Shown: in pieces, positions 39,182-54,789 of the stretch
How the letters are laid out: each line of letters begins with the position of its first letter
How positions within the stretch are numbered: position 1 is the stretch's first letter
DNA from: Arthrobacter subterraneus
GTDB taxonomy: Bacteria; Actinomycetota; Actinomycetes; Actinomycetales; Micrococcaceae
Reading direction: 5' to 3'
NCBI RefSeq assembly: GCF_900099735.1
Contig: NZ_FNDT01000003.1
Location: forward strand, 62,001 to 126,000
DNA: 64,000 nucleotides
Notes under the pieces: generated by a model
What the model was told of the DNA's origin: nothing
What the model saw: only the letters and a program-made list of their open reading frames with translations
Database searches by the model: none
Program-made: the position numbers and the translations under genes

Positions 39182-39325
39182 TCAGTGGGGCCAGTCGTCA
39201 ATGAGGATGCCGTAGGTGACCACACCCGACCTCAGTGCAGGCGCTGCGTCTTTGGCGACAGCTGCCGACCCCCCGCCCAGTGCGAGCGCCGCCGTCAGCA
39301 GGAGAACTGCGGAGAGTCTTTTCAT
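39182..39325 (-). CDS. Small secreted pro-peptide 1, divergent from TPR protein 1
   Basis: 47 residues. Signal peptide MKRLSAVLLLTAALALGGG then SAAVA, with an Ala-x-Ala cleavage expected after residue 24. The 23-residue mature part opens KDAAPALRSGVV and ends TYGILIDDWPH. The ATG follows AAGGA with 8-base spacing. The signal peptide is clearly homologous to that of the small gene at 40688-40843 (MKKVSATLLL and so on), but the mature parts differ except for a Trp-Pro. It diverges from a TPR-protein gene, exactly as the second copy does. I infer a secreted signalling peptide precursor; a bacteriocin-like or structural peptide is possible. Short length explains why gene callers may miss it. Confidence 0.72.
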   Translation of the reverse strand: MKRLSAVLLLTAALALGGGSAAVAKDAAPALRSGVVTYGILIDDWPH

Positions 39326-39354
39326 GTCGGGTTCCTTCGACGAAGAATCGCGGA

Positions 39355-39381
39355 CTGACCTATGTCAGATGATTCAGTATA
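39355..39381 (-). promoter_or_regulatory. Promoter box and dyad of pro-peptide 1
   Basis: On the minus strand TATACT (39381-39376) continues as TATACTGAA, identical to the second small gene. No clear -35 hexamer exists at 17 bp. CTGAC, 4 bases, GTCAG (39355-39368) lies at the predicted transcript start. Confidence 0.5.
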
Positions 39382-39562
39382 CGTAGGAAGTGTGATATGC
39401 AACACCCCGGGGCAGCATCTTCCCTGCGGCGCGTGCAACTCATCGCTCTCCGGTTGCGGCGTCTGTCCCAACCGGACCTTTCGGCATAAACTCAAGGGAC
39501 AGCACGTCGGAACCGCGGCGACCGCATTGCCGTTTCGACGCAACCTCAGACAAGGCGGAAGC

Positions 39563-40591
39563 GTGGCAGCGCATCGTTCGGGCGACCTGATCATGGTGGA
39601 GCTGCGCGCACGTGAGGCCTGGAGTCAGCGAGACTACGGCACTGCCAGGCGTCTGGCGGGGTCCGCCGTCGAACTCGCCGCTGCTGCGGACGATCATCAC
39701 GCCTGGTGGAATATGACTTTCCTCCAGGCAGAGTGCCTCCGCGAGGAAGGATCGCTCGATCAATCCCTCCAATACGCTGAGGCGCTGGGCACCAGCCATC
39801 TCACCCTCGATTCCGATGCCCTGAAGGCGCGCGTCCACACCCTCGCCGCCGTCTGCCAGCAGGGGCTTGGGCATCTCGATCAGGCAGTGGACAGTGCAAC
39901 CATTGCGGTGAGGAGTGCGGCTTCGGTGCGTGATGCTCCGGAGCTCCAGATCGAGGCCCACCATGCGCTTATCGCTGCGCTTGCGGAAAGCGGCCGCCTG
40001 GACGAAGCCTGGAGCACGTGCCTGGATCTCTCCACCCACATCACACCGGCCATCCATACCCAGACTGCGGGCAAGGCGTACTGGGTTATCGGGAATGTTG
40101 CGTTCATGCGCCACCAGGTCGACGACGGCACAAAGTTCCACCGCCTTGCGGCGGAGCATCTCACCCCGAACAATGACCTGGACCTGTGGGCACGGTTCAA
40201 CCGCGCGTCAGCTTCCCGGCGACTCGCCGCCGGCGTGGTCGATGCGGAAACACTCGAGTGCATCGAAAGGGCCGAAGTAGCCAGCTCCATTGTGGGCGGC
40301 ACCGAACGGGACCGGCTTCAGCTCTCCCTGACGCGCGCACACTGGCTATTCCTCACGAGCCAGCTCAACGCTGCTGTTGAACGGCTACGGCCCATCTGCG
40401 CGGACGGGTCGGTGCTGTCCCGGCAAACCGAGGGGGAAGCGAACCTGCTGCTTGCCCAGGCGCTATCTGCACGGGGCGAGGAGCTCGAAGCCCTGGCTCA
40501 TTTCGACCTGAGTGAACAGTGTTTCATCGAGGCCGGAGCACCTGACCGGGCCGCGCATGTGCGTGAGCTGGTCACCAGGCTCCGTTCCTAG
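39563..40591 (+). CDS. TPR-repeat protein 1 (putative peptide receptor, Rap/RRNPP-like)
   Basis: 342 residues, almost entirely helical with degenerate tetratricopeptide repeats: ELRAREAWSQRDYGTARRLA at the start, ALIAALAESGRLDEAWSTCL mid-protein, ALSARGEELEALAHFDLSEQ near the end. No HTH, membrane segment or enzymatic motif. About 60% identical by eye to TPR protein 2; the best conserved blocks are QTAGKAYWVIGNVA, NDLDLWARFNRASA and ETLECIERAE. I chose GTG 39563 because it aligns with the start of the paralogue and follows AAGGCGGAAG; an ATG 67 codons earlier overlaps the peptide promoter region. It diverges from pro-peptide 1, suggesting a peptide receptor (inference). Confidence 0.8.
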   Translation: MAAHRSGDLIMVELRAREAWSQRDYGTARRLAGSAVELAAAADDHHAWWNMTFLQAECLREEGSLDQSLQYAEALGTSHLTLDSDALKARVHTLAAVCQQGLGHLDQAVDSATIAVRSAASVRDAPELQIEAHHALIAALAESGRLDEAWSTCLDLSTHITPAIHTQTAGKAYWVIGNVAFMRHQVDDGTKFHRLAAEHLTPNNDLDLWARFNRASASRRLAAGVVDAETLECIERAEVASSIVGGTERDRLQLSLTRAHWLFLTSQLNAAVERLRPICADGSVLSRQTEGEANLLLAQALSARGEELEALAHFDLSEQCFIEAGAPDRAAHVRELVTRLRS

Positions 40592-40609
40592 AATCCAGCA
40601 CACAGGACA

Positions 40610-40649
40610 AAGGGCCCGACATCAGACAAGCGTCCGACGCCGGGCCCTT
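40610..40649. terminator. Bidirectional hairpin between TPR1 and pro-peptide 2
   Basis: AAGGGCCCG and CGGGCCCTT, 9-bp arms around a 22-base loop that can pair internally. It serves the convergent ends of TPR protein 1 and pro-peptide 2. Confidence 0.65.
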
Positions 40650-40687
40650 GCTGACCCTCAAAGCCAGGATCAGTGGGAACGCACTCG

Positions 40688-40843
40688 TTACACAGTGGAG
40701 CGGGTGCTGTCCGGCCAGTTACCGCTCTTCGCAGTAGTTGTACCCGAGTCCGGCCAGTTACCACTCTTGGCGGCATGAGCAGCTGTGCCGCCCCCAACCA
40801 GAAGCAACGCAGTCAGCAAGAGAGTTGCGGAGACCTTTTTCAT
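40688..40843 (-). CDS. Small secreted pro-peptide 2 with two tandem 13-residue units
   Basis: 51 residues. Signal peptide of 24 residues (MKKVSATLLLTALLLVGGG, TAAHA; cut after AHA). The mature 27 residues are AKSGNWPDSGTTT, then AKSGNWPDSTRST, then Val: two 13-residue units filling the whole mature region. The nine residues AKSGNWPDS are identical in both. Start ATG follows AAGGG with 7-base spacing. It diverges from TPR protein 2. Tandem repeats in a secreted precursor are typical of pheromone precursors that yield several copies of one peptide. No cleavage enzyme is identified here. The signal peptide is homologous to pro-peptide 1. Confidence 0.78.
   Translation of the reverse strand: MKKVSATLLLTALLLVGGGTAAHAAKSGNWPDSGTTTAKSGNWPDSTRSTV
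40709..40762 (-). repeat. 39-bp-period in-frame repeat inside pro-peptide 2
   Basis: GTCCGGCCAGTTACC occurs at 40709-40723 and 40748-40762 on the + strand, 39 bases apart (13 codons). Synonymous differences on either side show that the peptide repeat, not just the DNA, is kept. Confidence 0.85.
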
Positions 40844-40892
40844 GATTTGCCCTTGTCACTTGGATGGACGCAGAAAGACCATTTGCTTTCCG

Positions 40893-40915
40893 CGCTGCAC
40901 AGCGTCTTCAGTATA
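40893..40915 (-). promoter_or_regulatory. Promoter box and dyad of pro-peptide 2
   Basis: On the minus strand TATACT (40915-40910) continues TATACTGAA as in pro-peptide 1. CGCTG, 2 bases, CAGCG (40893-40904) lies at the predicted transcript start. A TGAC-N6-GTCA dyad sits upstream at 40938-40951. Confidence 0.5.
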
Positions 40916-41082
40916 TGGAGCAGAGCGGGCCAATGGGTGACTTTTTTGTCATCTTTTCCGCAGTTTTCACTCGGGCTAGGGAAAATCCGGGACTTCCTGG
41001 GTCTCAGCACCCACAATGGTGCAGACGGTTCTGACAATATGATCCGCAACGGACCGCTCCCAGCAATCATTGGAACGAGGCC

Positions 41083-42126
41083 ATGAACCAGACTCACGAA
41101 CCCGGGCAGCACGTGTTCCTGGAACTACGCGCCCGGGATGCCTGGGCCCAGCGGGATTATCGGGCCGCCCGGGAATTTGCCGGGCAGGCCCGCGGTGCCG
41201 CGGACGCGAACGGTGACGAGAACGCGTCGTGGAACATGGCGTTCCTGCAGCTGGAGTGCCTGAAGAAGGAGGGGCGGTTCGAGGAAGCCGCCTCGACCTC
41301 GGAAGCCCTGCGCGCGCACCCGCTGACCCAGCGTTATCCTGACCTCGCCGCCCGGGTGTCCACCTTCCTTGCTGACACCCTGATTGGGCGGGGCAACCTG
41401 GAAGCGGCCATGGTTGAAGCCCGGCGGGCCGTCGAAGCCGCAGAACAGGCCACCGGATCACCTGATCTCAGGATCCGCGCCCAGCACGCCCTCATTGCAG
41501 CCCTCGCGGAAAGCGACCAGGTTGATGATGCCTGGGAGGAATGCCTTCGGCTGGCGGAACTCATCACCCCGGAGGTGAATTCACAGACTGCGGGCAAGGC
41601 GTACTGGGTGATCGGCAACGTGGCCTATCTCAGGCGGGACACCCAAGCCGGCACTGAGTACCACCGACGCGCGGCCAGTCATCTTTCGCCGTCGAACGAC
41701 CTCGATCTGTGGGCACGCTTCAACCGTGCATCCGCCGCACTTCGCCTGGCCGGCGGAGTGGTGGAGCCCGAGACACTCGAATGCATTGAACGGGCGGAAC
41801 TTGCGGCATCGATTGTCGGGGGAAGCGAACGCGACAAACTGGAGCTGTCCCTCACACGAGCGCACTGGCTGCTTCTCACGGGCCAGGTTGACGCCGCCGT
41901 TGAGCGGCTCAAACCGATCTGCGAGGCATCCTCGCTAATGGCCAGCCAAACGGCCGCCGAGGCCTACCTGCTTCTCGGGCAGGCCCTGGACCGCCTCGGA
42001 GATCCGCTCGAGAGCCTGTTCCAGCTCGAGAAAAGCCAGGAATTGTTCCGGCAATCGGGCGCTCCCGACAGGGAAGCCCACGTAGGCGCGTTGATTGACG
42101 ATGCTGTGCGTAGGTCCGGGGCATAG
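41083..42126 (+). CDS. TPR-repeat protein 2 (putative peptide receptor, Rap/RRNPP-like)
   Basis: 347 residues, paralogue of TPR protein 1 along the whole length. Helical repeats such as ELRARDAWAQRDYRAAREFA, ALIAALAESDQVDDAWEECL and LLGQALDRLGDPLESLFQLE have TPR-like spacing. No HTH, signal peptide or membrane helix, so it is cytoplasmic. The ATG at 41083 follows GAGG closely. It diverges from pro-peptide 2 with a 239-base intergenic region. The four-gene arrangement peptide-TPR-peptide-TPR indicates a tandem duplication of a two-gene module. If TPR1/TPR2 bind re-imported peptides, an oligopeptide permease elsewhere would be needed; none lies in this window. Confidence 0.82.
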   Translation: MNQTHEPGQHVFLELRARDAWAQRDYRAAREFAGQARGAADANGDENASWNMAFLQLECLKKEGRFEEAASTSEALRAHPLTQRYPDLAARVSTFLADTLIGRGNLEAAMVEARRAVEAAEQATGSPDLRIRAQHALIAALAESDQVDDAWEECLRLAELITPEVNSQTAGKAYWVIGNVAYLRRDTQAGTEYHRRAASHLSPSNDLDLWARFNRASAALRLAGGVVEPETLECIERAELAASIVGGSERDKLELSLTRAHWLLLTGQVDAAVERLKPICEASSLMASQTAAEAYLLLGQALDRLGDPLESLFQLEKSQELFRQSGAPDREAHVGALIDDAVRRSGA

Positions 42127-42160: not shown

Positions 42161-43720
42161 TCAGGGCTTTAGTTCCTCCAGGACTTCCTGGACTTCCTCG
42201 TTGGAGAACTTTCGCCACGGTGAGGAGTCAGCCGTCTGCAGGGCCGCTTCGGGACTGTCGCTCCGGTTCCACCACTTCGCCTCAAAGACATGCCCGTCAA
42301 ACAGAATGCGGTCGCCTTTCTCATAGACCTTCTCCGCATCCCATCCCGGGTACGTCCCGGCCGGTGCGGTGACAACGGGCAGCGGCCGCTCCCCCGGCAG
42401 CACGGGCCCGATCAGCGTCCAGGGGGTCTCGGCAGCCTGGAGCACCGGATTGTCCGGCACATCTCCACTCGTCCAGTACTTGGCCGAATAGACCTTGCCC
42501 CTCCAGACAACCCGGTCGTCCACCACATAGGTGGATTCCTCCGCCCAGATTGGATAGGGGCTGGTCTCAGGATCATCGACTACCGGTTCCGGAGTGGGCT
42601 CCGCGGTGGTTGGCGCCGAGTTCAGGGTTGCTGCCCGTCCCTCGAAACCGGCCCCGAGGATGTCTGCAAAAAGCATCCCGTCCTGTTCGATGCCGCTGCA
42701 GCTGTCGGACACGATGCTCACGTCGCCGTAGTTGTCACTGCAGGTGGCGTCACGGTTGAGGGACCACATCGACATCCGGCCCACCCCCGATTCCAGGGCG
42801 AACGTATTGAACGCTGCGGCAGCATCGAGATCGAAGACCTCCGCGGGGACATCATTCTGGCCGATCATCGGTGTCAGCCCGATCTTCCTCCACAGCGTCT
42901 GAGGCCCGAGGCTGATGCCAGCCCGGTCATACAGGATGCCCAGCTGGGAGTGGGTTGCACGCGCCGCGGCGATCGACGCAACCAGCTGTGATACCCCGGC
43001 TTCCCGGCTTCCCCCGTAGTCCATCGTCATGACGTTCACTCCGGCGAGGTCGACGCCGCCTTCAAGCATCGCGGTCACGGCGTCGGTGCCCTGCACTGTC
43101 AGCCCTGACGGTGCTACGGGCACAGTGAGCCACACGTTCAAAGTCTTGCCGCCGGCGCGGCGTTCCTCCTGCAACGCGGCAATTGCCTCGGCCCTTCGGG
43201 CGCCCGCTTCGGAGTCGGCGAGATCCTCACCCTCGATGTCCAGGTCGATGGTGGTGAGATCGTAGCGTTCGACGACCGACCGGTACGCCCTCGTCAGTTG
43301 CCGCACATCGGTGCAGGTCCGGGCCAGCTCGTCGTTGATCAAGCCTCCGAATGACACGGCAACCTCCCCACCGCCCTGCAGCAGGCGCGCAATCCGCCGG
43401 TCGAGGTCCAGCTGCGACTGTGCTTCATCCATGGTGTAGGCGGCTCCCCAGGAGGGCCTGCATTTTTCCTTTGGATCCGCAACGATGAAGGACAGCACCA
43501 CGCTCTTGCCTTGCGCAGATGCGGGCTGCTCGAACGGATAAAAGGGTGTCGCCGTGGCGTCCACATACCCCGCAAACCACGAGCCCCCGTTGGCGGCGGC
43601 GCGCACGTCCTCAAAGCGGTTCCAGCCCACAAAAGTTGACGCTACCAGCGCTCCGACGACGGCGACCAGGACGGTGAGACGGACAGGCGAAAGCCTGCGG
43701 CCGGGAAAACGTTTGGACAT
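42161..43720 (-). CDS. Secreted GH18 chitinase with two ChiC-type carbohydrate-binding modules
   Basis: 519 residues. An N-terminal membrane/signal segment (SPVRLTVLVAVVGALVASTF) leads to a GH18 TIM barrel (about 45-360). The catalytic DxDxE motif is YDLTTIDLDIEGED, near residue 160; other barrel strands are VAVSFGGLIND and GVNVMTMDYGG. Two C-terminal chitin-binding modules of the CBM5/12 type follow a Pro/Glu linker: YPIWAEESTYVVDDRVVWRG (about 390) and YPGWDAEKVYEKGDRILFDG (about 455), both with AKYW/AKWW aromatic motifs. It should hydrolyse extracellular chitin. It diverges from the GT2 gene; its upstream region contains a nested inverted repeat. Confidence 0.9.
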   Translation of the reverse strand: MSKRFPGRRLSPVRLTVLVAVVGALVASTFVGWNRFEDVRAAANGGSWFAGYVDATATPFYPFEQPASAQGKSVVLSFIVADPKEKCRPSWGAAYTMDEAQSQLDLDRRIARLLQGGGEVAVSFGGLINDELARTCTDVRQLTRAYRSVVERYDLTTIDLDIEGEDLADSEAGARRAEAIAALQEERRAGGKTLNVWLTVPVAPSGLTVQGTDAVTAMLEGGVDLAGVNVMTMDYGGSREAGVSQLVASIAAARATHSQLGILYDRAGISLGPQTLWRKIGLTPMIGQNDVPAEVFDLDAAAAFNTFALESGVGRMSMWSLNRDATCSDNYGDVSIVSDSCSGIEQDGMLFADILGAGFEGRAATLNSAPTTAEPTPEPVVDDPETSPYPIWAEESTYVVDDRVVWRGKVYSAKYWTSGDVPDNPVLQAAETPWTLIGPVLPGERPLPVVTAPAGTYPGWDAEKVYEKGDRILFDGHVFEAKWWNRSDSPEAALQTADSSPWRKFSNEEVQEVLEELKP

Positions 43721-43912: not shown

Positions 43913-43934
43913 GGACATTCCGTGCGGAATGTCC
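43913..43934. promoter_or_regulatory. 22-bp inverted repeat at the glycosyltransferase start
   Basis: GGACATTCCG, 2 bases, CGGAATGTCC: perfect 10-bp arms. It covers the first possible ATG of the glycosyltransferase, so it would be an operator or the translation start lies further down. Confidence 0.5.
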
Positions 43935-46283
43935 ATGAGCGTATGGGGGCGGGGCGGAATGAACCAGGAAGTTGCCCTACCGGAATCACCGGTAGGAACA
44001 GCCACAACGTCGGGCACAGCGACGCGGCGCCGGCAGTGGGGATCGGAGAAAAGGTCCGAGCCGCTGTCGATCGTCCATCCACAGCCAACACGGCGGAAGA
44101 TCGCGCTGGGACGCCTTGGCATCGTTGTCACCATCCTCGGCTGGGTAGCCTATGTTGTCTCGACAATCCTTCGGGAGCTCTCCGAGAATCCGTCGCTCGG
44201 CTTCCGGTTCCAGCTGGAGGCCATCTTCTACCTCGTGGTGGTCACCTTCCTGACGTTTTCCGCGCTGATGTACCTGCTCGCGCGGCAGGGAGCGCTCTAT
44301 CGTTTCCGCGACCACCGTCGCGTCCCCCGCGGTGAACTGGATAGGCACTTCGCCCGGTACGAGGAGAGCATCACGGTCCTGGTGCCCTCCTACGCCGAAG
44401 AACCCGACGTGGTCCGCGCAACCCTCTGGTCCGCCGCCCTGCAGGAATTTCCGAATCTGCGGGTGACCCTCCTGCTCGATGACCCGCCTCACCCGACTGA
44501 CCCGGCGATTCTGGCGCGGCTGGAAGCCACACGAGCCCTGGCAGCCGAAATAGAGAGCACGTTGCTCGAACCGTCGATGCGGTTCAACACTGCCCTCGAC
44601 GACTACCGGGGCCGCATTGCAGCGAATGCCCCGGCAGGTGATGAACTCCCACGGCTGATCGCCGAGTACGAGGCCGCAGCCGTATGGCTGGAAACGATGG
44701 CCGAAAACGAGGCAGTCGACGACCACGTGGACGAGTTCTTCGTGGATCTTGTACTGATGGGCCTCGCTCGGGAACTGCGGCTGACGATCCTGGCGCTGGG
44801 CGCCGCGCTGTCCCAGCACAGTGCTCCCGAGCCTGACCGCATGGTCGAGCTCTACCAGCGCCTTGCCCGCATCTTCACCGCATCCATGAACACGTTCGAG
44901 CGCAAGCTTTACTCCTCGCTCTCGCACGAGGCAAACAAGGCGATGAACCTCAATGCCTACATCTCCCTCATGGGCAGCCGCTGGCATAAGGAGAAGGCAG
45001 CCAACGGTGTTGTACTGCGCCCCGCAGTACAACACCACGTCGATGACCTGGTGGTTCCGGATTCGACGTACCTCCTCACGCTCGACGCCGACTCCCTCCT
45101 CCTGCGCGACTATTGCCTCCGGCTGGTCCATCTGCTGGAAGCCCCGGGAAACGAGCGGGTCGCCGTAACCCAAACCCCGTACTCGTCGTTCCGCGGAGCA
45201 CCGACCCGCATTGAACGGGTTGCGGGCGCCACCACGGACATTCAGCACATCCTCCACCAGGGCATGACCTATTTCGGGGCCACCTTCTGGGTGGGAGCAA
45301 ACGCTGTGATCCGCAAGCGGGCGATCGAAGACATCGTCGAGGTTGAGAACGTCGGCGGGTTTGATATCAAGACCTATATCCAGGACCGCACCGTCATCGA
45401 GGACACCGAATCCAGCGTCGACCTCGGCACACATGGCTGGACCCTGGTCAACTATCCCGAGCGCCTCAGCTACAGCGCCACGCCGCCCGACTTCGGTTCC
45501 CTGGTGGTTCAGCGACGGCGATGGGCAAACGGCGGGCTGCTCATCCTTCCCAAACTCTGGAACCAGCTTCGGGAGCGGAAGCACCGGCGGGAACGCATCC
45601 TCGTCCGCGAGATCATTCTTCGCGTGAACTACATGGCCTCGATTGCGTGGGCGAGTTTCGGCCTTCTGTTCCTCCTGGGCTACCCCTACGACAGCCGGCT
45701 CCTGAGCCCGTTGGTCTTCATCACGGCGCTGCCGTACTTCCTCGCCATGGGCAGCGACCTTCGCGATTGCGGCCACCGTTTCAGTGACATCTTCAGGATT
45801 TACGGTTTCAACATCGTTCTCCTGCCTGTGAACCTGGCCGGTGTACTGAAATCCGTACAGCAGGCATTCACCGGTGAGAAGATCCCGTTCGTGCGGACGC
45901 CGAAAGTCAAGGACCGGACAGCCGCTCCTGCCCTCTACGTTGTGGTTCCGTTCCTGATCGTGGCGTACTCCCTGTTCACCTTCTGGCGTGATCTCGTCAG
46001 CGAAAACTGGGGCAACGCTGCCTTCGCGATGCTGAACGCCCTGCTGGCGTTCTACGCGATCCGCGCCTACATCGGTCTGAAGAACTCGGTCGTAGACATA
46101 GTGCTGGGCATCCTGAACTGGCTCTACGTCCCACCGCGGAAACCGAGGCAACGGCGGTCGCCGGTCATCGAGAAGCGGCCCGAGGAGGCTGACTGGGAGG
46201 CGATCCTGTACCACGGCGACCGCCGTTTGAACCGCGACATGCGCCAGGGCAATGACCGTCGTCGTCGTATCTCTGTACGGTAG
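43929..46283 (+). CDS. Membrane family 2 glycosyltransferase (cellulose/hyaluronan synthase-like) with large insert
   Basis: 784 residues. Two N-terminal membrane helices (about 59-115), a GT2 catalytic domain, then 4-5 membrane helices (about 570-740). It should polymerise and export a polysaccharide from a nucleotide sugar. Motifs are SITVLVPSYAEEPDVVRATL, TLLLDD, the DxD-type TYLLTLDADSLL, the acceptor-site ED of RTVIEDTESSVDLG and QRRRWANGG (QxxRW). About 190 residues of helical sequence separate LLLDD from the DxD, longer than in ordinary GT2s. The start is uncertain: ATGs at 43929, 43935 and 43959 are in frame; the first lies inside a dyad. No strong ribosome site is visible. Confidence 0.87.
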   Translation: MSMSVWGRGGMNQEVALPESPVGTATTSGTATRRRQWGSEKRSEPLSIVHPQPTRRKIALGRLGIVVTILGWVAYVVSTILRELSENPSLGFRFQLEAIFYLVVVTFLTFSALMYLLARQGALYRFRDHRRVPRGELDRHFARYEESITVLVPSYAEEPDVVRATLWSAALQEFPNLRVTLLLDDPPHPTDPAILARLEATRALAAEIESTLLEPSMRFNTALDDYRGRIAANAPAGDELPRLIAEYEAAAVWLETMAENEAVDDHVDEFFVDLVLMGLARELRLTILALGAALSQHSAPEPDRMVELYQRLARIFTASMNTFERKLYSSLSHEANKAMNLNAYISLMGSRWHKEKAANGVVLRPAVQHHVDDLVVPDSTYLLTLDADSLLLRDYCLRLVHLLEAPGNERVAVTQTPYSSFRGAPTRIERVAGATTDIQHILHQGMTYFGATFWVGANAVIRKRAIEDIVEVENVGGFDIKTYIQDRTVIEDTESSVDLGTHGWTLVNYPERLSYSATPPDFGSLVVQRRRWANGGLLILPKLWNQLRERKHRRERILVREIILRVNYMASIAWASFGLLFLLGYPYDSRLLSPLVFITALPYFLAMGSDLRDCGHRFSDIFRIYGFNIVLLPVNLAGVLKSVQQAFTGEKIPFVRTPKVKDRTAAPALYVVVPFLIVAYSLFTFWRDLVSENWGNAAFAMLNALLAFYAIRAYIGLKNSVVDIVLGILNWLYVPPRKPRQRRSPVIEKRPEEADWEAILYHGDRRLNRDMRQGNDRRRRISVR

Positions 46284-46355: not shown

Positions 46356-46739
46356 ATGAACGCAGGCTGGCTGACGCCCACTGAGGCACCGGATGCGCCT
46401 GCGCCCGTTTCGGTCATCCGTCTGGTCCTCCCGCAGGGTGAGCACATCACCGCGGATATTGCGGACCGGTTCGCGGCCCAGGCCCGTGTTGAAGCGGGGG
46501 GCGTTCCGCAGCCCATCCTCCTCGTCATTACCGGGGTAGCCTCGCTCAGCCGCGGAGCCCGCGCCGTCCTGAGCCGTTCCCGCACAGCCTCCTCGATTGC
46601 AGTGGTGGGCGGCAGCGCGGTGGACAGGGTCCTTGCGAACTTCCTCATCGGTGGTGAGCCGGCACCCTGCCCTACCCGCTACTTCGGGAATGAAGACGCT
46701 GCTCTCGCCTGGCTGCTTGGACCCGCACATGACGGCTGA
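46356..46739 (+). CDS. STAS/SpoIIAA-like small protein
   Basis: 127 residues, family only tentatively placed. Pattern: VSVIRLVLPQGEHITADIAD, ILLVITGVASLSRGARAVL, SIAVVGGSAVDRVLANFLIG, and the SpoIIAA-like ending CPTRYFGNEDAALAWLLGP. Such domains bind partner proteins or small ligands. Its stop overlaps the start of the GGDEF-EAL gene by 11 bases, so the two are translated together and probably interact. It follows the glycosyltransferase after 72 bases. Confidence 0.65.
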   Translation: MNAGWLTPTEAPDAPAPVSVIRLVLPQGEHITADIADRFAAQARVEAGGVPQPILLVITGVASLSRGARAVLSRSRTASSIAVVGGSAVDRVLANFLIGGEPAPCPTRYFGNEDAALAWLLGPAHDG

Positions 46740-48324
46740 GGACGGTGATCCCCGCCTGGCGATGCTGGTTGACGGCATCGTTCGCCTGTCGCGGGGAGAC
46801 CTCAGCAGCCGGATGACTCCCTCCGCTGCGCGCGATGATGTTGACGCCGTCATCACCGGCGTCAACCTTCTCGCAGAAGAGCTTGAGCTGGTCTACCGGC
46901 AGTTCGAGAAACGCGTGGAAAACCGCACCGCAATGCTTCACCAGGCGCACCTGGACATGAAGCGCATGGCCATGACGGACGCGCTCACCGGGCTGTCCAA
47001 CCGGGTGGACCTCATCGAGGACATCGAGAAGTCCCTGAACGCGCAGCGCAGCGGCTCAGCCCCACCGGCGCTCCTGCTGCTTGACCTGGATTCCTTCAAG
47101 AACATCAATGACCGGTTCGGCCACGACGCGGGTGACGACGTGCTGCGCGAGGTTGCGGAGCGGCTCCGGAGCGTGGTCCGGGCCACGGACACCGTGGCCC
47201 GGCTCGGAGGGGACGAGTTCGCTATCCTGGTGACGGAGGCCACCATGGAGATTGCCCTCGGCGTGGCCAACCGGGCGCTCGAGGTCCTCGCCCAGAGTAT
47301 CGACGTCGAGGAGTTCAGCGTGCAGCCGCGCGCCAGCATCGGGCTCCGCCTTGCCACCGGTGAACATACCGCCGACGCGCTGCTGCATGAGGCCGATACG
47401 GCCATGTATGCGGCAAAGCACGAGGGCCGCAGCACCATCAGGACCTTCGAACCGGTCATGCTCTATGAACGGCAGCTTCGTACTCTCATGGCCTCGGAAC
47501 TGCGCGACGCCATCGGAACCGATCAGCTCTGCGTTCACTACCAGCCGGTGGTCAATCTGAGCGACGGATCGGTCAACGGCGTGGAGGTGCTCGTCCGGTG
47601 GGAACACCCGAGCCGGGGAATGATCTCTCCTGAGGACTTCATCCCTCTCGCCGAAGAGATCGGAGCCATTTCGGAACTCGACCGGTGGGTCATGACAACG
47701 GCGCTCCAGCAGTTCGCGATCTGGCGGGCTGCGCTGCTTCTCCCGGACGACTTCCAGATGCGGGTCAACATCTCGGCGGTCGAGCTGCGCCAGCTCGACA
47801 TGGTCGACTTCGTCCGCAGCCTGCTCAAGCGGATGTCCGTGCCGCCGCCTGCCCTGGTCATCGAGATCACGGAATCGGCGCTGGTCAGCGGTGGTGAGGT
47901 GGAAACCTACTCCCTGCTCAGCTTCAAGCAGCTCGGAGTGTCGATCGAGATCGACGATTTTGGAACGGGATATTCATCGATCAGTTACCTGCGCAAGCTA
48001 CCGGTCGACATGGTGAAGGTTGACCGCTCCATCCTGCAGGAGCCGGCCGAAGGGACGTGGCAGCCGCGGTTCGTGGCAGCCGTGTACCAGCTCATCCAGG
48101 CGGCCGGTCTGGGTGCCGTCTTCGAAGGGATCGAGACGCAGGAACAGGCACAGTTCCTTCGGTCACTGGGCGAGCTGAGCGGGCAGGGCTTCTACTTCAG
48201 CAAGCCGCTTCCCGAGCCCGACATCACCGCCCTGCTGCGCTCCCGCAGTGCGCTCCCCCTGGGTCAGAACGACGTACTCTCGGGCGGTCAGGACAACGAC
48301 GGCACCGCAGGGTGCGACAGCTGA
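46729..48324 (+). CDS. GGDEF-EAL cyclic-di-GMP turnover protein
   Basis: 531 residues. N-terminal HAMP-like helices (about 1-65), GGDEF domain (about 85-240) and EAL domain (about 270-510). The diguanylate cyclase motif is intact (RLGGDEFAIL, residue about 161), with the inhibitory RxxD (RATD) five residues before it. The EAL motif reads EVL (GVEVLVRWEHP), keeping the catalytic Glu; other phosphodiesterase residues look intact (NISAVELRQ, EITESAL, IDDFGTGYSS, KVDRSIL, FEGIETQEQ). So both activities are possible. No membrane helix, so soluble. Placed after a GT2, it may set c-di-GMP for polysaccharide export (inference). Confidence 0.93.
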   Translation: MTAEDGDPRLAMLVDGIVRLSRGDLSSRMTPSAARDDVDAVITGVNLLAEELELVYRQFEKRVENRTAMLHQAHLDMKRMAMTDALTGLSNRVDLIEDIEKSLNAQRSGSAPPALLLLDLDSFKNINDRFGHDAGDDVLREVAERLRSVVRATDTVARLGGDEFAILVTEATMEIALGVANRALEVLAQSIDVEEFSVQPRASIGLRLATGEHTADALLHEADTAMYAAKHEGRSTIRTFEPVMLYERQLRTLMASELRDAIGTDQLCVHYQPVVNLSDGSVNGVEVLVRWEHPSRGMISPEDFIPLAEEIGAISELDRWVMTTALQQFAIWRAALLLPDDFQMRVNISAVELRQLDMVDFVRSLLKRMSVPPPALVIEITESALVSGGEVETYSLLSFKQLGVSIEIDDFGTGYSSISYLRKLPVDMVKVDRSILQEPAEGTWQPRFVAAVYQLIQAAGLGAVFEGIETQEQAQFLRSLGELSGQGFYFSKPLPEPDITALLRSRSALPLGQNDVLSGGQDNDGTAGCDS

Positions 48325-53802: not shown

Positions 53803-54789
53803 ATGTTGCAGTCAGATACCTTTTCACCCTCACATTCGGGGTCCCCTGTGGACGCACCGGGTGTGCCGGCCTTCCTGACGGTCCAGCTGATCGGCTCGCT
53901 GCGCATCCGGCGCGGTGATACCGTACTCAACGCCCGGACCCTCGGTGGACCAAAGCCTCGCCAGATTCTGGAGATTCTCCTCCTGAGCCTGGGTACCCCC
54001 GTCTCCAAGGACCGTCTCATCGAGGTCCTCTGGGAGGGACATGCGCCGGCAGAGGCTCTCCCGACGCTTGAAAGCTACGTCAGCGTTCTGCGCCGGAACA
54101 TCCAGCCGGGCAGCGGCAAACTTGGCCCCCTGCGTACCACCACCGGCGGTTACGTGATGGACGCGGCCATGGTGGATCTTGATGTCTTCCGCTTCGACCA
54201 GCTCCTGCGCCTGGCGCAGCAGAGCGCACCCGAAACCGCGCTGCAGCTTCTTCAGGAAGCGCTGGGCTTCGCAACGGCCCCGCTGCTTGGCGACGAACTG
54301 CTGCCGGCGTGGGCGGAGGATGAGCGCGAGCTTCACAATTCCCGCGTGCTGGAAGCGACGGTTCTTGCGGCAGAAACGGCGGCAACGCTGGGAGCCGTCT
54401 CCGAGTCCATCGACTGGGCCCAGAAGGCCCTGACGATGGATCCTCTCAACGAACGTGCCTGGGAGGCCCGGATTGCCGGCCTCGAGCGCACGGGACGGTA
54501 CGCCGAGGGCCTGCAGTGCTACGAAAAGTGCCGCAGGGCCATGGTCCGGGAACTTGGCTGTGCGCCGGGTCCGGGCCTGAAGGCAGCACACGCGCGGCTC
54601 CTGCAGGCTACTGCGGAGAATGAAGGAGAACTCTCCGACGTTCTCTCTGCACTGCTTGTTCTCCACGGCCAGCTCAGCAGGACGCCAACACCTGCGGCCG
54701 AAGCAGCACCGCAGATTGTCCGCCAGTCCCTTCGGGAAGCCACCCACGTCATCAACTCGTTCCTGCTCCGGGCGATGTCCGCAGCGTAG
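53803..54789 (+). CDS. SARP-type regulator (OmpR-like HTH plus BTAD)
   Basis: 328 residues. N-terminal OmpR/PhoB-like winged helix (about 22-115; ARTLGGPKPRQILEILLLSL, VSKDRLIEVLWEGHAPAEAL, LRTTTGGYVMD), then a bacterial transcriptional activation domain with TPR-like helices (about 120-275; VDLDVFRFDQLLRLAQQ, ERAWEARIAGLERTGRYAEG). This is the short SARP architecture without NB-ARC. SARPs activate specialised metabolism in Streptomyces. No biosynthetic cluster is adjacent; the nearest structural gene is the giant peroxidase, which is convergent. AAAGGA/GAGG precede the ATG. CTACTC repeats upstream. Confidence 0.9.
   Translation: MLQSDTFSPSHSGSPVDAPGVPAFLTVQLIGSLRIRRGDTVLNARTLGGPKPRQILEILLLSLGTPVSKDRLIEVLWEGHAPAEALPTLESYVSVLRRNIQPGSGKLGPLRTTTGGYVMDAAMVDLDVFRFDQLLRLAQQSAPETALQLLQEALGFATAPLLGDELLPAWAEDERELHNSRVLEATVLAAETAATLGAVSESIDWAQKALTMDPLNERAWEARIAGLERTGRYAEGLQCYEKCRRAMVRELGCAPGPGLKAAHARLLQATAENEGELSDVLSALLVLHGQLSRTPTPAAEAAPQIVRQSLREATHVINSFLLRAMSAA

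Follow-up and report, generated by a model that had tools for sequence, protein, structure and literature searches.

The 64,000-nucleotide stretch of the Arthrobacter subterraneus genome analysed here (the window; contig NZ_FNDT01000003.1, positions 62,001 to 126,000) contains two copies of a two-gene module, in which a small open reading frame (ORF) for a putative secreted pro-peptide diverges from a gene for a tetratricopeptide repeat (TPR) protein. An earlier note on this DNA had described an alternating order, peptide on the minus strand and TPR protein on the plus strand, and the ORFs bear it out as follows.

39182..39325, minus strand: pro-peptide 1, with a signal peptide (cut likely after AVA, by eye) and the C-terminal core IDDWPH
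39326..39562: divergent intergenic region 1, 237 nucleotides (nt)
39563..40591, plus strand: TPR1, a TPR protein without a helix-turn-helix (HTH); the conserved part starts from GTG 39563 and the frame is open from 39362
40688..40843, minus strand: pro-peptide 2, with a signal peptide (cut likely after AHA, by eye) and AKSGNWPDS twice
40844..41082: divergent intergenic region 2, 239 nt
41083..42126, plus strand: TPR2, an HTH-less protein modelled with nine TPRs

The small ORFs have 47 and 51 codons, and AAGGA or AAGGG lies a few bases 5' of each ATG. Pro-peptide 1 (MKRLSAVLLLTAALALGGGSAAVAKDAAPALRSGVVTYGILIDDWPH) ends in IDDWPH, and pro-peptide 2 (MKKVSATLLLTALLLVGGGTAAHAAKSGNWPDSGTTTAKSGNWPDSTRSTV) carries AKSGNWPDS at residues 25-33 and 38-46; the earlier note had missed both details. 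It had rightly called the two TPR proteins full-length paralogues (55% identity across their length) and the small genes relatives at the same divergent position (46% in alignment, with a single-comparison E of 7e-05). The window genome (3.87 Mb, 99.99% complete) holds these two receptors and one match at E 0.005 over 87 residues, and after the two peptides the next-best peptide match has E 0.13.

Receptor homologues at E<=1e-10 were found in 38/38 searched genomes of the genus (that of the window included) and in 220/395 sampled genomes of the family. An HTH motif was seen by pattern in 37 near receptors (HTH-type); the others are TPR-only. A near receptor was defined by at least 40% identity and at least 500 bases upstream, and the peptide search (loci L010-L158) covered the 900 divergent bases before the receptor for an ORF with a signal peptide and a Trp-Pro (WP) pair. 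From the 148 receptor genes examined, 3 were dropped for having fewer than 500 upstream bases and 12 were distant paralogues; 133 were left, 132 of them with a peptide. The divergent signal-peptide ORF with WP was present at 95/96 TPR-only and 37/37 HTH-type near receptors, and no near receptor had a signal-peptide ORF that lacked WP (95/95 and 37/37 have it). Counted by distinct receptors (different last 200 residues; a genome may enter via two genome sets), the figures were 68/69 and 33/33, or 101/102, versus 0/12 for the distant paralogues, in agreement with the expectation that homologous TPR genes keep an adjacent small secreted ORF. At the sole miss, TPR1 of L081, the end of an integrase-like frame sits directly upstream, as judged by eye. 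Spacing between peptide and receptor was 105-249 nt in the TPR-only pairs (n=95). Some counts were made on a named set, the best 80 of 269 loci, whose titles are Arthrobacter, Paenarthrobacter, Pseudarthrobacter or Micrococcaceae, except one that looks wrong. In these 80 loci (1.96 Mb of strand), a signal-peptide ORF with W..P among its final 14 residues was seen 79 times upstream of receptors and 14 times elsewhere, which exceeds chance; the 14 were taken as background. A record titled Vibrio cholerae strain 35D (L095; also L034, L196) holds an Arthrobacter-type locus and is most likely mislabelled.

The peptides of the family have a Trp-Pro core in common, single or repeated up to six times, which stands at the C-terminus or close to it; examples are IDDWPH, GNWPD, GWWPN, NNWPY and GNWPDPM. 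In related species that possess both paralogues, TPR1 orthologues are paired with IDDWPH or IDNWPN peptides, and TPR2 orthologues with peptides that have two to four copies of GNWPD or GNWPG. Paenarthrobacter-type and related loci have GWWPN, GWWPH or GWWPD cores, the agilis group has NNWPY, GSWPF, NNWPG and other cores, and HTH receptors adjoin repeated GNWPDPM, VGDWPH or VGNWPDRF-type units in up to six copies. Among 59 cores, which were picked by their WP, the position before Trp (W-1) takes 12 residue types and the position after Pro (P+1) takes 8, one core stopping at P; the receptor tree requires 19 changes at W-1 and 20 at P+1. Such a short conserved core with variable flanks resembles what receptor specificity would leave behind. 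The orthologue-wise cores fit the two specificities that the earlier note had proposed for this locus; that they serve in signalling is what we infer.

Selection on the small ORFs was examined by the ratio of nonsynonymous to synonymous differences (pN/pS) in pairs of one receptor type, with a peptide identity of at least 70%, a length difference of at most 8, at least 4 differences and pS of at most 0.5. For non-overlapping pairs the ratio was 0.19 (TPR-only, 25 pairs) and 0.17 (HTH, 14 pairs), where non-overlapping means that each locus was used once and does not mean phylogenetic independence. It was below 1 in 318/318 pairs compared, and the protein-coding conservation that the earlier note had asked about is thus present. 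By all-pair sums, pN/pS was 0.11 (TPR-only) and 0.19 (HTH) in the first 25 residues, 0.30 and 0.29 in the middle part, and 0.24 and 0.01 in the last eight residues. Judged by sequence comparison, the small ORFs evolve as proteins, and the gene pair is real, conserved and under selection.

We then consider the receptors. No HTH or enzyme domain exceeded the Pfam cut-off in TPR1 or TPR2, as the earlier note had stated; TPR_8 is barely over the cut-off in TPR2 (25.9 versus 25.7 bits), TPR models are only below threshold in TPR1, and NCBIfam gave no usable name. The AlphaFold model of TPR2 is a nine-TPR solenoid with a mean predicted local distance difference test score (pLDDT) of 95.1. By inspection no signal peptide was seen, and the receptor is a cytosolic TPR-domain protein, as is asked of RRNPP/RRNPPA receptors. 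In a 44-row alignment, W50, W175, N179, W210, N214, S217, R221, R259 and W262 are invariant, among others, and the invariant residues fall on model helices 46-62, 167-183, 207-223 and 249-265. From TPR geometry, these positions would match the expectation for a peptide groove. LGN, designed TPRs, OGT and MalT domain III were among the 50 Foldseek matches listed for TPR2, and no RRNPP receptor was among those 50.

The HTH-less state at the window holds for its own proteins and does not extend to the related receptors, some of which do carry an HTH. Two sister receptors that were scanned have an N-terminal HTH_31/HTH_3 (PF13560, PF01381) over the cut-off together with TPR_12. In the receptor tree, which has some long branches, a single branch has the HTH rows to one side of it (support 72/66; recovered in 74% of 200 bootstrap trees). 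The simplest explanation is therefore that the HTH state changed once, although this is not firmly shown. Since the sister receptors have the HTH, the HTH-less receptors of the window are probably derived by its loss. The model of an HTH-type receptor had a pLDDT of 83.6, low in the HTH part, and its Foldseek matches include, at rank 50, Rap in complex with its pheromone (4gyo, E 4.5e-05); LGN and other TPR proteins rank higher. For the HTH region, the matches to PlcR (2qfc, E 0.013) and ComR (E 0.21 and 0.23) are weak. Between the HTH receptor and the GNWPDPM peptide gene, the intergenic region shows conserved TTGACATACATTGTAAAATGTTTTCCACAG...TGTCAAG with the near-palindrome ACATTGTAAAATGT (19 sequences). 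The operator-like core ACATTGTAAAATGTTTTCCACA, with 3 mismatches allowed, occurs at one site per genome in 11/12 genomes, just 5' of the HTH receptor, which speaks against further regulon targets. The near-palindrome is therefore a candidate autoregulatory site. Taken together, we regard peptide signalling as the best reading of the gene pair and as very probable.

A likely output gene lies downstream of the modules, outside the coordinates of the earlier note. The genes between and around are as follows.

42161..43720, minus strand: neighbouring GH18-like (sub-threshold)/CBM5_12 protein, in 6/47 TPR-only named loci
43929..46283, plus strand: neighbouring glycosyltransferase family 2 gene, in 6/47 TPR-only named loci; a candidate for matrix output
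46356..46739, plus strand: DUF7793 (SpoIIAA-like) small protein, overlapping the start of the GGDEF-EAL gene
46729..48324, plus strand: soluble protein with HAMP-like, GGDEF and EAL parts, the proposed target of the TPR receptors

A BTAD/SARP-like regulator (PF03704, PF00486) was also seen further downstream, at 53803-54789 of the window.

Linkage was counted on the 75 of the 80 named loci that exceed 8 kb. A GGDEF-EAL gene matching that at 46729-48324 was present in 47/47 TPR-only versus 0/28 HTH loci; by distinct receptor in all named loci it was present in 51/52 versus 0/26, the miss being on a contig shorter than 8 kb. The linked gene has the same strand as the receptor. The distance from the TPR stop to the start of its match is about 30 nt in Paenarthrobacter-type loci, about 0.1-1.1 kb in many others and 1.6-6.2 kb in the remaining loci, among them the clade of the window; three loci (L068, L167, L170) have it on the peptide side. 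The linkage persists where neighbourhoods share no other tested window gene (e.g. L107 versus L079). A DUF7793-type gene stood between TPR and GGDEF-EAL in 4/6 sampled gaps (two Pfam-confirmed). GGDEF, E-x-L and IDDFGTG are intact in 47/47 aligned copies, that of the window included, and EGxE in the 45 with letters there; by motif, the protein is catalytically intact. No transmembrane segment is evident in it (maximum 19-residue hydropathy 1.41), and Pfam finds no TPR. EAL genes were found in 19/20 genomes examined, 1 to 12 each, and in the window genome (at E<=1e-10), G065 and G074 the single EAL gene is the linked one. From this linkage and the single EAL gene, we propose that the HTH-less receptors act on the GGDEF-EAL enzyme.

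The HTH-less receptor of a genuine pheromone/TPR pair might instead, as Rap does, have a different target, either a response regulator or a transcription factor, with the GGDEF-EAL gene linked only through co-regulation or as a downstream target. Genes do intervene between TPR and GGDEF-EAL in the window and in several relatives, and Rap proteins act on response regulators, according to published abstracts. However, the association is found in every TPR-only named locus above 8 kb and in none of the HTH loci, across otherwise unlike neighbourhoods, and the enzyme match follows the TPR gene at about 30 nt in Paenarthrobacter-type loci but is found on the peptide side in three others (L068, L167, L170). 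We consider this alternative unlikely.

The mechanism that we favour, in which a pheromone is secreted, re-imported and bound by a cytosolic TPR receptor, which in turn controls cyclic-di-GMP turnover via GGDEF-EAL, seems to us reasonably likely as a whole. The pro-peptide would be exported via its signal peptide and cut outside to a short Trp-Pro peptide of about 5-9 residues, for which IDDWPH (pro-peptide 1) and SGNWPDS-like forms (pro-peptide 2) are the predicted mature forms. The computed [M+H]+ values are 782.347 for IDDWPH, 762.305 for SGNWPDS, 961.437 for AKSGNWPDS, 772.378 for IGWWPN and 816.335 for GNWPDPM. An oligopeptide importer would return the mature peptide to the cytosol, and the window genome has five genes of the SBP_bac_5 oligopeptide-binding type. 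Once inside, the peptide would sit in the groove of the divergently encoded TPR protein. In the wider family, a receptor with an XRE-type HTH would act as a transcription factor; in the branch of the window, where the HTH would have been lost, the receptor would control the linked HAMP-like GGDEF-EAL enzyme by protein contact. Cell density would then set cyclic-di-GMP and probably surface polysaccharide, and the tandem copy would provide two pherotypes that feed one enzyme.

If the peptides were secreted antimicrobials or surface-acting agents, with the TPR protein as an immunity or biosynthesis factor, small secreted, diversifying and sometimes repeated peptides next to a conserved gene would also be expected. 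However, the neighbours scanned with Pfam, which are not every gene of the window, include no peptide-modifying enzyme or dedicated exporter, the receptors are modelled as nine-TPR proteins with sister lineages that have a DNA-binding HTH, and a short conserved core between variable flanks suggests specificity for a receptor; we find this account improbable. A further account, the least probable of all, has the TPR protein bind the pro-peptide inside the producer, whether to chaperone it, to aid its export or as a self-sensing timer, and involves no signalling between cells. The receptor, in which no signal peptide was seen by inspection, does share a compartment with the unexported precursor, but constraint in the TPR-only group is strongest on the signal-peptide part (pN/pS 0.11 versus 0.30 and 0.24), and export thus seems to matter.

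Several points weigh against the proposed cyclic-di-GMP pheromone system. The signal peptides were called by our own heuristic and not by SignalP. No WP peptide stands beside any of the distant HTH-TPR paralogues (0/12), nor in 8/20 further loci of the wider sample (L161, L163-L165, L174-L177). In fold searches, generic TPR solenoids come above Rap, and hmmsearch of the TPR region against PDB sequences gave no RRNPP receptor, the five matches at E<=0.01 all being designed pentatricopeptide repeat (PPR) or solenoid proteins. The HTH matches Lmo0325 (E 0.0034) and ClgR (E 0.0056) better than PlcR. The linkage counts (47/47 versus 0/28) are phylogenetically dependent, and two genes lie between TPR2 and DUF7793/GGDEF-EAL in the window, so that co-transcription is not evident there.

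The nearest known systems include members of the RRNPP families. Like Rap-Phr of Bacillus, the window combines an HTH-less TPR protein with a small secreted pro-peptide, of which the short C-terminal part probably serves as the signal, and Rap-CSF (4gyo) is among the Foldseek matches of the HTH-type model. Unlike Rap-Phr, it belongs to Actinomycetota and has a divergent order, a WP core and linkage to GGDEF-EAL instead of a phosphorelay. An assignment to RRNPP by sequence did not succeed, as the TPR region matched none of the RRNPP receptors in the PDB and the HTH was nearer to other HTH proteins. The sister branch resembles PlcR-PapR, NprR-NprX, ComR and PrgX in having an HTH and TPR receptor beside a secreted pro-peptide, whereas the window proteins lack the N-terminal HTH, the sister precursors carry multiple copies of GNWPDPM and the hosts are not Bacillota. 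Several pheromone copies per precursor recall the tandemly duplicated Phr pro-peptides of PMC11343458, but the copies here reach six and occur in Actinomycetota. In Vibrio vulnificus, the TPR protein of RcbA/RcbB de-represses a diguanylate cyclase, and thus a TPR protein controls an adjacently encoded GGDEF enzyme; RcbB differs in having a TPR domain itself, and a pheromone is not mentioned in the sections at hand (PMC12282931). The earlier note had held that the RRNPP peptide gene follows its receptor on the same strand. Orientation is not uniform in known RRNPP systems either, and PMC10075063 tabulates several arrangements.

The family was also followed beyond the Micrococcaceae. At the order level, matches were found in 26/396 genomes, of which 4 do not belong to the family. 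Twenty further loci (L159-L178; L178 repeats L078) gave a WP peptide in 12; GGSWPT repeats (L171, L172) and a TWPA end (L173) adjoin HTH-TPR receptors of another family with about 30% identity. In L163 the HTH-TPR receptor is broken over two frames and has no peptide, an apparent decay. The distant HTH-TPR paralogues of other genomes of the genus (L039-L050), which lack a WP peptide, may be orphan receptors or listeners to another signal.

At the class level, 52/394 genomes (6 in the order of the window) match the HTH-TPR receptor profile at E<=1e-25. The sample taken from them, 20 loci with 21 receptor genes, consists mostly of the best-scoring loci outside the order. Among its 38 signal-peptide ORFs, 9 have W..P in the last 14 residues, against 0.2 per 20 loci expected from a first-order random model. 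Each of the nine lies immediately 5' of the receptor, eight in divergent orientation, and they end in DIEWPVVRPTGGGA, DIGWPVPPAGA, LDWPWI, LNWPKCC, GWGWPG, IGWVYPG, PWQWPI, DWPVMCC and SIEWP. A WP-ending ORF appears in L203 and L204 when the signal-peptide filter is dropped, and six class receptors (two in L197; L200, L207, L208, L211) have no candidate peptide. ORFs ending in CC or CCG stand beside other receptors, upstream in L214-L216 and downstream in L209. The HTH-TPR receptors near signal-peptide ORFs ending in Cys-Cys(-Gly) in L209 and L214-L217 may belong to a second peptide class.

A plasmid search with TPR2 gave no match at E<=1e-5, and the class-level HTH-TPR receptor has 16 homologue records, on Streptomyces and Streptosporangium plasmids; 15/16 are annotated only as helix-turn-helix proteins, and a Nonomuraea record has no annotation there. 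None of six plasmid homologues inspected has a WP ORF, and Nonomuraea has one divergent signal-peptide ORF, which ends in GDAGCC. That actinomycetes own a class-wide pheromone family with HTH-TPR receptors and a Trp-Pro or, elsewhere, Cys-Cys C-terminal part, of which one Micrococcaceae branch lost the HTH and came to switch a cyclic-di-GMP enzyme directly, is in our view evenly balanced between true and false. On this reading, peptide quorum sensing would feed straight into second-messenger metabolism.

RRNPP-type quorum sensing by intracellular peptides is catalogued in Bacillota. In open-licence PubMed Central (PMC), preprints excluded, the listed titles and starts of abstracts (up to 20 per search) showed no such system when RRNPP systems or peptide pheromones were sought in Actinobacteria, Arthrobacter and Streptomyces, or a peptide pheromone together with cyclic-di-GMP, and our claim of novelty is confined to that scope. 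The stems actinobact- and actinomycet- are absent from the main texts of two family-wide studies (PMC9765709, PMC12700828), and in PMC10075063 they occur only in the introduction, which describes actinobacterial signals as typically small molecules, and in a reference. The single-EAL-gene genome of the window offers a direct test of peptide control of cyclic-di-GMP. We know of no identification of the peptide imported by Streptomyces BldK, and the WP-peptide family may bear on it. If the WP-peptide/TPR family is true, Actinomycetota would have their own genome-predictable peptide language.

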